Virus record (IMG/VR): IMGVR_UViG_3300009528_000013
Location: 1 to 64,000 of that record
Length of the DNA: 64,000 nucleotides
From: a virus
Reading direction: 5' to 3' (one strand)
The translations under genes were made by a program, and so were the position numbers. Under the pieces are notes generated by a model. The model ran no database searches, was not told the DNA's origin, and was given only the letters and a program-made list of their open reading frames with translations. Below are positions 1,560 through 21,952 of the stretch, one piece after another (position 1 is the first letter of the stretch; the number at the start of each line of letters is the position of its first letter).

Positions 1560-1991
1560 TTAGATTTGATAAACACAAACTTTAATTTTTTCATTCTCCG
1601 GTTTTTCAACTCTCCAACGATGAACTAACAAGGAAGAAATTTGTTGATCGCTTTTGTAAAAAAGCCCTTCAAGAGCATTCTGGATCAGCGTCGCCACGTG
1701 ATCTAAATCCGGGATTGGATTTCCATCCGGGTTCATGAAATTCTCATCGTAGGCTTCGAAGATATTTAGGAGTAGTTCGACTTCTTGATTTCTCGGGACG
1801 GTTTCGAAAGGACTCGAAACAATCTCGGAGATTTTTACCAAAAGACGTTCAGTGAAATTCTTACATTCTGCGGTTAAAATCATTTTCCTGCCGAACGGTT
1901 TCAACTTCCAAGAGACCGCCCGCATCGGAACCTCGAATTCGCAGATTCTTTTCAAAATGATCTCCCTTCTAAAATAATCCTTTTTGGCCAT
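1560..1991 (-). CDS. hypothetical protein, 143 aa
   Basis: Not recognised. Mixed alpha/beta composition with no Cys clusters and no transmembrane segment. It overlaps the 3' end of the helicase gene by 23 bp, so translation is probably coupled to the helicase. Confidence 0.7.
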   Translation of the reverse strand: MAKKDYFRREIILKRICEFEVPMRAVSWKLKPFGRKMILTAECKNFTERLLVKISEIVSSPFETVPRNQEVELLLNIFEAYDENFMNPDGNPIPDLDHVATLIQNALEGLFYKSDQQISSLLVHRWRVEKPENEKIKVCVYQI

Positions 1992-4566
1992 CGGTGAGAA
2001 GGCGTTGAGGACGCAGAATAACGTCCGAAAATTTCTTCTTAGTTTTCAGAATTGATAAGACGTAAGTATCAATCGAATCCGGAACGACGAAATCGATAAT
2101 TGTGGTCTTCTTCGTTTGGCCGAGGCGATCTATCCTTCCTTCGCATTGATTCCGATCTCCCCAGGAGAAGTTGGATTCCAGGAAAATTGCGACACTCGCC
2201 GCCGTTAAATCAAGTCCAAGATTTACAGTCGAAATCTGTCCGAGAAAAAGCTGTGAAGTCGGATCATCTTGAAATCTCCTGATCTCCGCAGCACGTTTCT
2301 TTCGGACGGCACCGTAAACAACGGACGGATTTAGTTTCTTTTTTGTAGCCCATTCTTGTACTTTCCGTAACGTATGAAGAAATTGAACAAATACCAAAAT
2401 CTTTGTCTCAGTACCCAGTACTTCTCGCTCCATGTAATCGGTGAATGTTTTGAACTTCGATGTGCCGATCTCAGTAGTCACACCATCGCCATTCGTGATA
2501 AAGCCGCTGTTGATCTGATGCAATCGAAGAAGTTGCGTCAAGACATTGGTCGCAACGATTCTTTCGGTCGTGGATAATTGCATCAAGAAATTTTCCTTCA
2601 TCGAATAATACGCCGCGCTTTCGTCTGCGGAAAGCTTAACGGTTCGAGTTTGATAGGTTTTTGGAGGCAGATCAAACAGATCCTTTCGCGGAAAGGTGAT
2701 CCCGGCCGAATAAAGTCTCTTTCGGAAGTGTTCGATATTTCTCGGTCCGATGAAGGCTTTTCCATCATATCCACCGAGCGTTGCATACATTGCTTTGTAA
2801 TCTGCATATCTGGTTCCGAACACAGAAGCATCAAGGAATTTATATTGCGAAAATATGTCAAGGATATTATTTGGAGTCGGAAGCCCGGTCAGGATCAGTT
2901 TATAGGAAGTCCGAGCAAATGCCCGATAGAAAGCCCATGTGAGTTTTATCCCCGGATTTTTGATCTTGGTCGAATTGGAAACGATGATTCCATTTGCAAG
3001 AATATAATTATGGTTATCTTTGACTTCGAGATCATAAACCCGACCCAATCGCTTTTTTGGATTTTTGAGGGGCCGGAAATTCTCGTCTTTGCGGTTCAAT
3101 TTGATTTGCTCGATTGATGGAACTGTCATACTTTCAGTTATAGAAAACTTTCCCTCATAAGGAGTTTTGTAGTCCATACATCGCGGAATGTAAGGCCGGA
3201 TTAAATTGAAAAATCGAGTCTGTGAATCAGCACGAATCGAAATACAAAGTTGATCTTTCCGAACTTTCGATGAAATTGTTTGAATCCCAAATCTATCTCG
3301 AAGCCAAATCTGAAGTTTTCGAACCTCCTGTGGAGAAAAACCTTGAGTATGAAGTTGGACGCGGTACCAAGAATAGATTTTAACTATTCCATTCATCAAT
3401 AGCTGAGTTTTTTTGACTTTGACTCTAGATCCATCATCGAGATACCAGAACGCTAGCGAAACTTCATCGGCTTCATTGAGAAGTTCAATTGGAACTATTT
3501 TTTTTCCGTTTGGGTAAAATAATTTTCTCCAGCTTTTCGAAGTCTCGGTTGGACTTAGAAAAAAGTAATTAGAACGTCCCCAATCATTTTGAGCAGTAGT
3601 TGTCTGATTTGCGAAGACCTGAAACAATTTCCTTTTGAGATCGAAATATTCTTTTTGTTTTTCAGAATGAACAAACCAAATTTGACCTAGAGTTTTGTGA
3701 ATTGAAGCATCTCCTAACATACAGCCAATCAGAACCTTTCTCTGAAAATCGGAAAAATCCGGCATTGCTTTGTAAATCGAATCTCCGATTTGAAGCTTCT
3801 TTGCACTTCGAATCCCTCTGGAAGAAAAGAATTTATGCGAAGCAGTACAGATCACCGAATATGATTTTGATTTATTTCCGAAGTGTAGTTTCACGAAAGC
3901 ATGAAATCTGGGCTTTCGAAAAACTTTTTTTACTGTTTTCAATTCAACTTGTTCAGTTTGAAAATTAAAACTCCGAACAAGATTGCCTGGTTTCAGATTA
4001 GAGATCCGTTTACTACCATCCGAAGTCTGAACCAATGTATCTCCGCTCAGACATTCGTCTGCGATGACCATATCAAACCCTTTTGCCCGAAATCCTTTTT
4101 CATAAATTCTCACACTTTCGTAGTGACAGACCAATATCTCAGGCGGTTCTTTAACCGCAAGAAGGGAACCGATTTTCTCAAGTCGATTCCCCTCCATGAT
4201 TTCGAATTTTAGATCGCTGTGCTTCTCCAACTCGAATTCCCAGGTACTTAGAACAGACAGCGGACAAACAATCAAAGCCCTCTTAACTTGGCCCTGCTCG
4301 ATCCGATACCGAAGAATGTCGATTGCTGCTTTAGTTTTGCCGCTGCCGATCGGCAAGAGTAAAGCTGCGCAGTCTCGTTTCAAACCAAATTTGAACGTAG
4401 CCAATTGGTGAGCAAGCGGCTTCGTATGAAACCAAGATAGGGGGACTGGAAGCCCTCTCGCAAACTCATCGTACCGCAACTCCATCAGGGTCCCTTTGTG
4501 GGCCTTCTGGAAAAGAGAAAGCTGAGTCGGACTTCCTGGCTGATTTTGCATAGAGTGAATCGACAT
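1969..4566 (-). CDS. SNF2-family (superfamily 2) helicase interrupted by an intein
   Basis: DNA-dependent ATPase of the SNF2/DEAD-like superfamily. The 865-residue precursor is a 171-residue N-extein, a 360-residue intein (172-531) and a 334-residue C-extein. Visible motifs: Walker A GSGKT (74-78); motif Ia region ALIVCPLSVLSTW (97-109); motif II split by the intein, VIADE joining STKIKN; motif III LILTGLPTPN; C-terminal helicase lobe with ILVFVQF, a Gly-rich NLGLDLTAASVAIFLE and motif VI EGRIDRLGQTK, typical of SNF2 proteins (DRxxRxGQ). The spliced protein would be about 505 residues, a normal size for phage SNF2-like helicases. It probably acts in replication or recombination. It is first in order after the DUF932 gene. 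The start has a loosely spaced GGGAG upstream. Confidence 0.93.
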   Translation of the reverse strand: MSIHSMQNQPGSPTQLSLFQKAHKGTLMELRYDEFARGLPVPLSWFHTKPLAHQLATFKFGLKRDCAALLLPIGSGKTKAAIDILRYRIEQGQVKRALIVCPLSVLSTWEFELEKHSDLKFEIMEGNRLEKIGSLLAVKEPPEILVCHYESVRIYEKGFRAKGFDMVIADECLSGDTLVQTSDGSKRISNLKPGNLVRSFNFQTEQVELKTVKKVFRKPRFHAFVKLHFGNKSKSYSVICTASHKFFSSRGIRSAKKLQIGDSIYKAMPDFSDFQRKVLIGCMLGDASIHKTLGQIWFVHSEKQKEYFDLKRKLFQVFANQTTTAQNDWGRSNYFFLSPTETSKSWRKLFYPNGKKIVPIELLNEADEVSLAFWYLDDGSRVKVKKTQLLMNGIVKIYSWYRVQLHTQGFSPQEVRKLQIWLRDRFGIQTISSKVRKDQLCISIRADSQTRFFNLIRPYIPRCMDYKTPYEGKFSITESMTVPSIEQIKLNRKDENFRPLKNPKKRLGRVYDLEVKDNHNYILANGIIVSNSTKIKNPGIKLTWAFYRAFARTSYKLILTGLPTPNNILDIFSQYKFLDASVFGTRYADYKAMYATLGGYDGKAFIGPRNIEHFRKRLYSAGITFPRKDLFDLPPKTYQTRTVKLSADESAAYYSMKENFLMQLSTTERIVATNVLTQLLRLHQINSGFITNGDGVTTEIGTSKFKTFTDYMEREVLGTETKILVFVQFLHTLRKVQEWATKKKLNPSVVYGAVRKKRAAEIRRFQDDPTSQLFLGQISTVNLGLDLTAASVAIFLESNFSWGDRNQCEGRIDRLGQTKKTTIIDFVVPDSIDTYVLSILKTKKKFSDVILRPQRLLTDGQKGLF
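2974..4053 (-). other. intein with LAGLIDADG-type homing endonuclease, in the helicase DEAH box
   Basis: 360-residue intein inside the SNF2 helicase. It starts with Cys1 (CLSGDTLVQT, block A) and has a block B histidine in CTASHKF. Two endonuclease half-motifs follow, LIGCMLGDAS at intein 108-117 and AFWYLDDGS at 201-209. Block F is DNHNYILANGIIV. The end is Ser-Asn, followed by Ser as the first C-extein residue. The penultimate residue is Ser instead of the usual His. The insertion splits motif II (DE/STKIKN), an invariant ATPase site, which is a typical place for inteins. Boundaries rest on the block A and G motifs and on the restored helicase motif. Confidence 0.9.
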
Positions 4567-15788: not shown

Positions 15789-16316
15789 TTAGCTAATTCT
15801 ACCTATGATCTCTCTCGGAATAATCCACGGCGTTGTATGCGTTCCAGATGGTGCTGAATCTACCCAATATACTTGGATTCCGACATCAAATTTAGCGCGA
15901 TAAAACGAGGCGGCAGAAAGAAGTCTCTCCGCTCTTGCTCGAATATCCATCCAACTCGATAGACTCCGAAGATGACGAGTATTTGAATTAGCAAAGCATG
16001 AGGCAAGAACCCTCCACTTCTGTTCCTTTAAGTCTCCGCACTGGCACCCTAAAAGCGCGACAGGACTTTCATCTGAGTACGCGAGAGGATTTCTACGACG
16101 GAAAGCCCGCAATAAGATTTTGGCATCCGGATCCTCTCCGGCCGAGTACACAAAAATCCCCAGAGAGTCTTCGAATGCCTTGATCCTCTCGTTTAACTGA
16201 TAAATCAGATTACCTCCAATCCGCCGCGGCTCTACCTGATTGAGAAAGATATTGACAGGACTGAGCGATTGAAAGCTATCTTCTCGGACTCGGACAACCT
16301 TGAGGCACTTCTGCAT
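15789..16316 (-). CDS. hypothetical protein, 175 aa, paralogue of the 21.4-22.0 kb locus
   Basis: Start at 16316 after GGGAGGATTAGG. Shared with the locus at 21438-21952: N-terminal KVVRxRExxFxSxSPxxIFL, then IYQLxxRxxAFEDSLGIFV, CxCGxLKxQxWR, SSWMxxRA and a final TTPWxIPREx. This copy is intact; the other carries a frameshift. Not recognised beyond that. Confidence 0.75.
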   Translation of the reverse strand: MQKCLKVVRVREDSFQSLSPVNIFLNQVEPRRIGGNLIYQLNERIKAFEDSLGIFVYSAGEDPDAKILLRAFRRRNPLAYSDESPVALLGCQCGDLKEQKWRVLASCFANSNTRHLRSLSSWMDIRARAERLLSAASFYRAKFDVGIQVYWVDSAPSGTHTTPWIIPREIIGRIS

Positions 16317-16317
16317 C

Positions 16318-16494
16318 CTAATCCTCCCACTCGTTAGCCAGCGTTGTGAGTTGTTCCCGGTAATCCTCTTCATCTTGTTCTCTCGATTCCCACAGGTCGA
16401 CATCTCGAAGATTCTCCCAGACTTCATCTCGAACCAAATCCGAGAGTACCGTCGGACCAGCCTCACCCTCGTTAATCCTCCGCGATTCGGCCAA
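16318..16494 (-). CDS. small acidic protein, 58 aa, TTG start
   Basis: Read directly. The frame from TTG at 16494 to the stop at 16318 is strikingly protein-like (DLVRDEVWENLRDVDLWESR, ending LTTLANEWED). The only alternative is an Arg-rich frame. The start codon is uncertain; no ATG or GTG is available and the ribosome site is weak. It abuts the 175-residue gene. Confidence 0.5.
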   Translation of the reverse strand: MAESRRINEGEAGPTVLSDLVRDEVWENLRDVDLWESREQDEEDYREQLTTLANEWED

Positions 16495-16669
16495 GATAGA
16501 ATCCGGGATAACGCTTTTTCTTCTCTTCTCGACTAAGAGGTTTCTGTGATTCTGTATTGCACTCCGGAACAGAAACCCCCGCGTCGTTCATTCTGATTTT
16601 GATCTCTGGTGCGGTGCACATTTCGTCGGAACAAAACTTGCAGTCGAGGTTATCGCATTTTACGATCAT
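16472..16669 (-). CDS. small metal-binding protein, DUF1540-like
   Basis: Start at 16669 after AGGAGGG. MIVKCDNLDCKFCSDEMCTA then PEIKI and a later Cys matches the small Cys-rich DUF1540-type pattern (KCxxxxCxx...CxAxxIxI...C). Likely binds zinc. 65 residues. Confidence 0.65.
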   Translation of the reverse strand: MIVKCDNLDCKFCSDEMCTAPEIKIRMNDAGVSVPECNTESQKPLSREEKKKRYPGFYLGRIAED

Positions 16670-16836
16670 CGGCCATACCCTCCTGATCGTCTCTGCCCGG
16701 AACGGGCTGATCTCCAAAAGGTGGTTGTAACTGCTGACAGCCTGCGGCGAGCCAGTAGAGGAACTGCGCCAGCCGATTTCTATTCGATGGATCCGCTTCC
16801 AACCAAAAGCTACAGAATTACGGTTGAATCAAAAGA

Positions 16837-16942
16837 GTTTCAATCCTTGTTTTAATGGATAGGTATCTAAACCAGTCGAATCGTCGGTAACGACTGTGAT
16901 GTTGAGGTTTCAATCCTTGTTTTGATGGATCGGTTCCGATAG
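16837..16942. CRISPR. candidate miniature CRISPR array: two repeats, one spacer
   Basis: Two direct copies begin at 16837 and 16907, a 70-bp period. The shared core is GTTTCAATCCTTGTTTT, then A or G, then ATGGAT (24 nt, one mismatch). Copy 1 ends CTAAAC, so a 36-nt repeat is GTTT...AAAC, the usual CRISPR form. Copy 2 decays over its last 12 nt, as terminal repeats often do. Spacer 16873-16906 is 34 nt. A third, much weaker copy of the ATGGAT half lies 68 bp upstream (16786-16792). GTTTCAATCC starts are common in type I and III bacterial repeats. No cas genes are in the window. Confidence 0.55.
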
Positions 16943-16956
16943 TTTATCTACCAATT

Positions 16957-17098: not shown

Positions 17099-17311
17099 TT
17101 AGAGTTGCCACACGTTTCCGTATCTGACTTTTACGAGTTCCGCACCGAATCCCTTTCGGTTCATCACTGAAGCAACCAGATCAGCTTCGCTCCTTGCCAT
17201 CCTCGTAGCGGCTACCGGGTCGGATGTCAATTCTGGCGTATTGTCCACCCCAGTAAACTTTATGAAGTATCCTGCTCCACTTCTTACGATACGATCCTTC
17301 TTCAGAGTCAT
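17099..17311 (-). CDS. hypothetical protein, 70 aa
   Basis: A beta-alpha pattern (RIVRSGAGYFIKF, then ARSEADLVASVMNRKGFG and VKVRYGNVW). Not recognised. Ends 10 bp before the small membrane protein's start. Confidence 0.65.
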   Translation of the reverse strand: MTLKKDRIVRSGAGYFIKFTGVDNTPELTSDPVAATRMARSEADLVASVMNRKGFGAELVKVRYGNVWQL

Positions 17312-21437: not shown

Positions 21438-21952
21438 TTACAACGTGGTTCTGCATAGAACCTCTCTCGGAATGACCCACGGGGTCGTATATGATCCGAC
21501 AGGAGTTTGACTCACCGGCCTCGATAGAACGGCACTTACATAGCCGACATCGGGGAGATGCCGCGATACCACCGCTCGGAGTTCCATCCAACTCGACAGC
21601 TTCAGAAATTGATGGGTCTCTTGACGAGGATCGTTCGGCTCTCGCATTCTCCACGCCTGCGCTTTTAATTCTCCGCATTCACACCTCAGAAGAACAACGG
21701 GACGTAGGGAATTAAAAGCGTTCAGCAGAAGCGCGGGATTTTGGGACCATCCCCACCCCGGATCAGTCGGAAAAACAAAGATTCCCAGAGAGTCCTCGAA
21801 AGCGTCCGTCCTCTGATCCAACTGATAGATCAGACCGCCCCCCACTCGCCGTCCCTCTCCTCTCGAAATAGCCCCCCGAGAAAAATGCTGATTGGACTAA
21901 CCGACCAAAATTTGTTTTCTCTGATACGAACGACCTTATAGCATTCATTCAT
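21438..21952 (-). pseudogene. frameshifted paralogue of the 175-aa gene at 15.8 kb
   Basis: The frame from ATG at 21952 encodes MNECYKVVRIRENKFWSVSP then ISIFLGG, aligning with the start of the 15789-16316 protein. It stops before the conserved GGLIYQL...AFEDSLGIFV part, which continues in another frame down to 21438. One extra G in the six-G run (plus strand C-run 21872-21877) would restore a single frame. Either the gene is broken, it is frameshifted during translation, or the homopolymer was miscalled. The 135-codon lower frame is otherwise intact. Confidence 0.65.

Follow-up and report, generated by a model that had tools for sequence, protein, structure and literature searches.

Organization of arrays A and B

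The window (the whole 64,000-nt stretch analysed, bases 1-64000 of the 117,770-base virus record IMGVR_UViG_3300009528_000013) carries on its minus strand a repeat-spacer-repeat unit, termed array A (16943-16837), which is flanked by two short codirectional ORFs. The direct repeats of array A begin at 16837 and 16907 and share 93% identity over 28 nt, their period being 70 bp. On the minus strand, both copies match the Rfam family CRISPR-DR7 (RF01320) over the whole family length, at 16873-16837 (40.8 bits) and 16943-16907 (35.9 bits), respectively; only the downstream copy exceeds the gathering score of 37. These matches confirm the two repeats with a 70-bp period recognized in the initial annotation. 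Host repeats of the CRISPR-DR7-type family are 37 nt long. The downstream copy is best taken to span 36 nt (16837-16872), with two short deletions and one insertion relative to array B, and this reading leaves a spacer A of 34 nt at 16873-16906, in agreement with the repeat and spacer proposed before.

In the upstream copy, the hairpin AUCC..GGAU and the 8-nt handle AUUGAAAC are intact, and the 5' 12 nt are decayed. One repeat had indeed been described as decayed at the right-hand end; however, on the coding strand this is not the 3' but the 5' end and precedes the hairpin. Upon Cas6 processing, the part of the upstream repeat before the hairpin would not be included in the crRNA of spacer A. 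A weak third copy had been suspected at 16769, but it matches at only 16/37 positions, a value equalled by shuffled sequence 31% of the time, and is thus attributable to chance.

A second array outside the window, array B (record 84310-84419, plus strand; L009:410-519), emerged when the window sequence and the repeat pattern were used as queries against the record; it lies upstream of a putative glycosyltransferase-like gene. CRISPR-DR7 is matched by 4/4 virus repeats of arrays A and B, all of which keep the hairpin and the handle save for single changes, the B1 handle ending in U. The repeats vary both within an array and between the two arrays. Arrays A and B are intergenic and run in the same direction as their neighbouring genes, which would allow transcription from viral operons. 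A leader common to the virus arrays and the host arrays was not found, the single promoter-like site does not exceed chance, and folding predictions give the whole arrays no more stability than shuffled sequence.

Table 1. Features of arrays A and B (window coordinates for array A, record coordinates for array B)
Feature	Position	Strand	Evidence or remark
ORF, 70 aa, upstream of array A	17099..17311	-	codirectional; no family match
CRISPR repeat, upstream copy (transcript order)	16907..16943	-	CRISPR-DR7 35.9 bits; hairpin in predicted fold
Spacer A, 34 nt, CTCAACATCACAGTCGTTACCGACGATTCGACTG	16873..16906	-	36-nt reading of downstream copy
CRISPR repeat, downstream copy, 36 nt	16837..16872	-	CRISPR-DR7 40.8 bits; 24-nt core identical to host arrays
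ORF, 81 aa, downstream of array A	16472..16717	-	codirectional; sub-threshold DUF1540 match
Array B repeats	84310-84346 and 84383-84419	+	CRISPR-DR7 37.8 and 50.5 bits

The record encodes terminase and portal genes, and the uncultured virus is therefore a tailed virus. Searches for relatives of the terminase in IMG/VR returned only the same virus, with none in phage records; the glycosyltransferase-like protein likewise returned only the same virus and had no match in phage records. The contig IMGVR_UViG_3300024429_000007 contains an identical array B and shares 100% identity with the record over the ~21 kb compared, indicating that it is the same virus from another dataset rather than an independent relative. 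In line with the initial annotation, a scan of 129 virus ORFs revealed no cas gene among the top 25 PADLOC families or the top 25 Pfam families.

Several other genes of the virus were observed in passing. A DNA helicase gene (window 1969-4566, minus strand) has, at residues 269-469, an internal match to a LAGLIDADG homing endonuclease that probably represents an intein. Two minus-strand ORFs (window 15789-16466 and 21438-21845), one of them ~370 nt downstream of array A, share by eye stretches of the type GGxLIYQLxxRxxAFEDSLGIFV and are paralogue-like. A primase-helicase (L010:10320-13043, minus strand) combines a DnaG zinc ribbon with an MCM P-loop domain and has ~29% identity to Microbacterium phage proteins over 89% of its length.

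Repeat type and its distribution

The 24-nt core of the array A repeats is ATCCATTAAAACAAGGATTGAAAC, or the variant in which position 7 is C instead of T, a form carried by the upstream copy and also found in host arrays. Scanning bacterial and archaeal genomes with this 24-nt pattern yielded at least 113 stretches from many phyla, and many of those listed are long arrays that combine the identical core ATCCATTAAAACAAGGATTGAAAC with a lineage-specific 13-nt 5' part. The ORFs from 92 places beside core-bearing arrays include Cas1 (14), Cas6b (10), Cas3 (9-10), Cas5b/Cas5h (5), Cas7/Csh2 of type I-B (4) and a TM1802-family protein (1). The presence of Cas6b, Cas3, Cas5b, Cas7/Csh2 and Cas1 beside arrays with the core assigns the virus repeat to type I-B. 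Together with the repeat-spacer-repeat organization, the type I-B core supports the initial description of array A as a virus-borne mini-CRISPR with one spacer.

The comparison with host arrays, which the initial annotation had proposed as a check, thus succeeded for the core, identical in many of them, but not for the full 37-nt virus repeat GTTTAAGAACGCTATCCATTAAAACAAGGATTGAAAC, which is absent among the matches listed. The nearest of these differ at 4 positions, and the 5' 13 nt of the virus repeat differs from the hosts among these matches at no fewer than 4 positions. Moreover, no copy of the full repeat with up to 3 mismatches occurs in 125 and 398 genomes representing the phyla to which two repeat-bearing genomes belong. 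The spacer lengths of 34 nt (array A) and 36 nt (array B) fall inside the host range, the host mode being 36 nt. Comparison of host spacers with the virus gave a longest unrelated match of 17 nt, which is about the chance expectation.

The type I-B repeat core is also found in other viral contigs. Eleven IMG/VR contigs (L124-L131, L133, L135 and L136) have one copy each, and the full 37-nt repeat of L126 equals the repeat of an array in a Tenericutes MAG (L012). These contigs may carry solitary repeat units, which are candidate RNA anti-CRISPRs. A further viral contig has a two-repeat unit of the array A/B repeat family (L134:2620-2721, approximately), with copies 64 nt apart and a spacer of ~27 nt.

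Origin of the two spacers

No significant match to spacer A was detected in a six-frame comparison with the virus's genome, IMG/VR (one reading frame) contained no exact protospacer, and nothing convincing turned up in phage records or plasmids; the search of viral databases suggested in the initial annotation gave nothing significant. Read as LNITVVTDDST, spacer A gave four IMG/VR matches to a degenerate pattern, the best of which lies at the end of an ORF (L138) with 24/33 nt identical. This match is unconvincing, as the degenerate pattern itself selects for such matches.

Spacer B, AAGAGTTCGTATCCCGCTGTCGATTACATCGCAGTA, is 36 nt long and encodes KSSYPAVDYIAV. The same 12/12 residues are encoded at 84512-84547, in the gene 165 nt downstream of array B. 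Alignment of the spacer with the virus's own gene showed that 27/36 nt are identical and that all nine differences (positions 3, 4, 5, 6, 9, 15, 18, 33 and 36) are synonymous, including the change of a serine codon from TCA to AGT. Since the protein is the same but synonymous change is saturated, the most likely source of spacer B is a diverged homologue of the downstream gene, probably residing in a related or rival virus. Paralogues in the gene cluster have KSMYDAVDAIVI and, read by eye, RSIYDVVDHIVI at the equivalent place, indicating that the sequence downstream of array B is native coding sequence. A scan of IMG/VR for KSSYPAVDYIAV, allowing all codon choices, returned this virus alone, with no exact protospacer for spacer B, and phage records contained no convincing one.

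In the seed, 4 of the first 8 positions of spacer B mismatch the virus's own site, which is preceded by TTA. These mismatches make self-targeting unlikely, and the spacer should spare its own carrier. The gene downstream of array B has no Pfam or PHROGs match. Its neighbours encode family 2 and family 9 glycosyltransferases and members of the WbqC and PIG-L families, from which, in addition to a resemblance to the N-termini of family 2, we infer that it is glycosyltransferase-like. In the record of 117,770 nt, a random site would fall as close as 165 nt, on either side, with a probability of ~0.3%, a post hoc figure for a single case. We also applied a proximity test to other viral arrays with the GGATTGAAAC end, in which several spacers match their own contig; these were not taken as evidence, because several of the matches adjoin the array and resemble further degenerate array units.

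Possible roles of the arrays

Viruses are known to carry mini-CRISPR arrays that use the Cas proteins of the host against related viruses (Medvedeva 2019), and arrays A and B are likely to be of this kind, exploiting host type I-B Cas proteins for interviral competition. During infection, the arrays would be transcribed along with the virus's own neighbouring genes, and host Cas6b would cut the transcript into crRNAs with the 5' handle AUUGAAAC (array A) or AUUGAAAU (array B). Once loaded into the host type I-B Cascade, these crRNAs would direct Cas3 to the DNA of co-infecting related viruses, leading to superinfection exclusion. An attack on rival phages had already been envisaged for array A, and spacer B, which probably stems from a homologue of a gene of the virus itself, backs it better than any feature of the window.

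The repeats could instead serve as an RNA anti-CRISPR (Racr), in which they are decoys that draw host Cas6b and Cas7 into dead complexes, thereby shielding the virus from host immunity, and the spacers are irrelevant. Decay has affected the 5' part in one of the copies, yet hairpin and handle are retained; the majority of the other core-bearing viral contigs have a single repeat, i.e. the solitary-repeat architecture (PMC10651486); and a processed array would likewise occupy Cas proteins. Nevertheless, arrays A and B each possess two repeats at array spacing with a spacer of normal length rather than a solitary unit, a distinction also made by SRUFinder (PMC10651486), which separates paired repeats from solitary units. 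As a decoy also has no need of homologous viral gene sequence, from which spacer B appears to derive, we regard the Racr reading as unlikely.

It is rather improbable that the arrays are passive relics, namely unused array pieces acquired when the virus recombined with a host CRISPR locus. Such an origin would agree with the variation of the repeats within and between arrays, and with the failure to find a target for spacer A or a leader, but not with the survival of hairpin and handle in 4/4 repeats save for single changes. Use is also a better fit to two independent intergenic codirectional placements, and to a spacer that seems to be directed against a relative while sparing its carrier. 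Taken by itself, array A is short and has one spacer, as a simple repeat with a chance likeness to CRISPR might. However, this refuting case, named in the initial annotation, is contradicted by the Rfam score above the gathering threshold, the 24-nt core identical to that of host arrays and the second array in the genome, and it is highly improbable.

The closest counterparts of the proposed mini-CRISPRs are the cas-less viral mini-arrays of the portogloboviruses SPV1 and SPV2, with 1-2 spacers against related viruses (Medvedeva et al. 2019, PMC6858448). In these viruses, the carrier's own locus is mutated or deleted and the spacer targets lie near the array, a proximity left unexplained. Arrays A and B share with them the low number of spacers (1-2), the intergenic position and the lack of detected cas genes and, if the source of spacer B is a relative, also a spacer from a related virus, an altered own locus and a target near the array. 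By contrast, SPV1 and SPV2 have archaeal hosts, genomes of ~20 kb, host-like leaders and host-matched repeats, whereas the present virus is tailed, with at least 117.8 kb, a type I-B repeat and no leader found. For huge phages, Al-Shayeb et al. 2020 (PMC7162821) describe compact cas-less arrays that are similar in their host-like repeats and absence of interference genes, some spacers targeting other phages; these arrays are longer (median six repeats) and reside in genomes of > 200 kb, and the passages considered mention no adjacent target homologue, unlike array B. Solitary repeat units (PMC10651486) are likewise host-repeat copies that occur in viruses and lack cas genes, but consist of single repeats with no spacer, compared to the repeat-spacer-repeat structure of arrays A and B. 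Modelling papers (PMC7099407) consider recombination and adaptation as routes by which viral mini-arrays acquire spacers.

We tentatively suggest that the closeness of array B to the target homologue has been selected, either as a poison-antidote linkage or, alternatively, through a homing-like conversion of the rival's locus. In the linkage version, the spacer may act as the poison and the synonymously different, immune glycosyltransferase-like allele as the antidote; a recombinant that combines the array with the rival's allele would cut itself, so that spacer and immune allele would have to remain linked. In the homing version, host Cas proteins may cut the rival at the locus of the array, and repair may transfer both array and immune allele to the rival, which may amount to a homing-like marker exclusion by guide RNA. 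Phage homing endonucleases (PMC11620839) provide a protein-based parallel for interference between co-infecting viruses.

Array B adds another viral mini-array with a spacer apparently derived from a homologue of the adjoining gene, and its carrier, a large tailed virus, differs from the archaeal portogloboviruses. We found one earlier report of array-target proximity in the literature, and a second case makes linkage and homing testable in sister viruses. If true, either version would account for the proximity that was left unexplained in Medvedeva et al. (PMC6858448).
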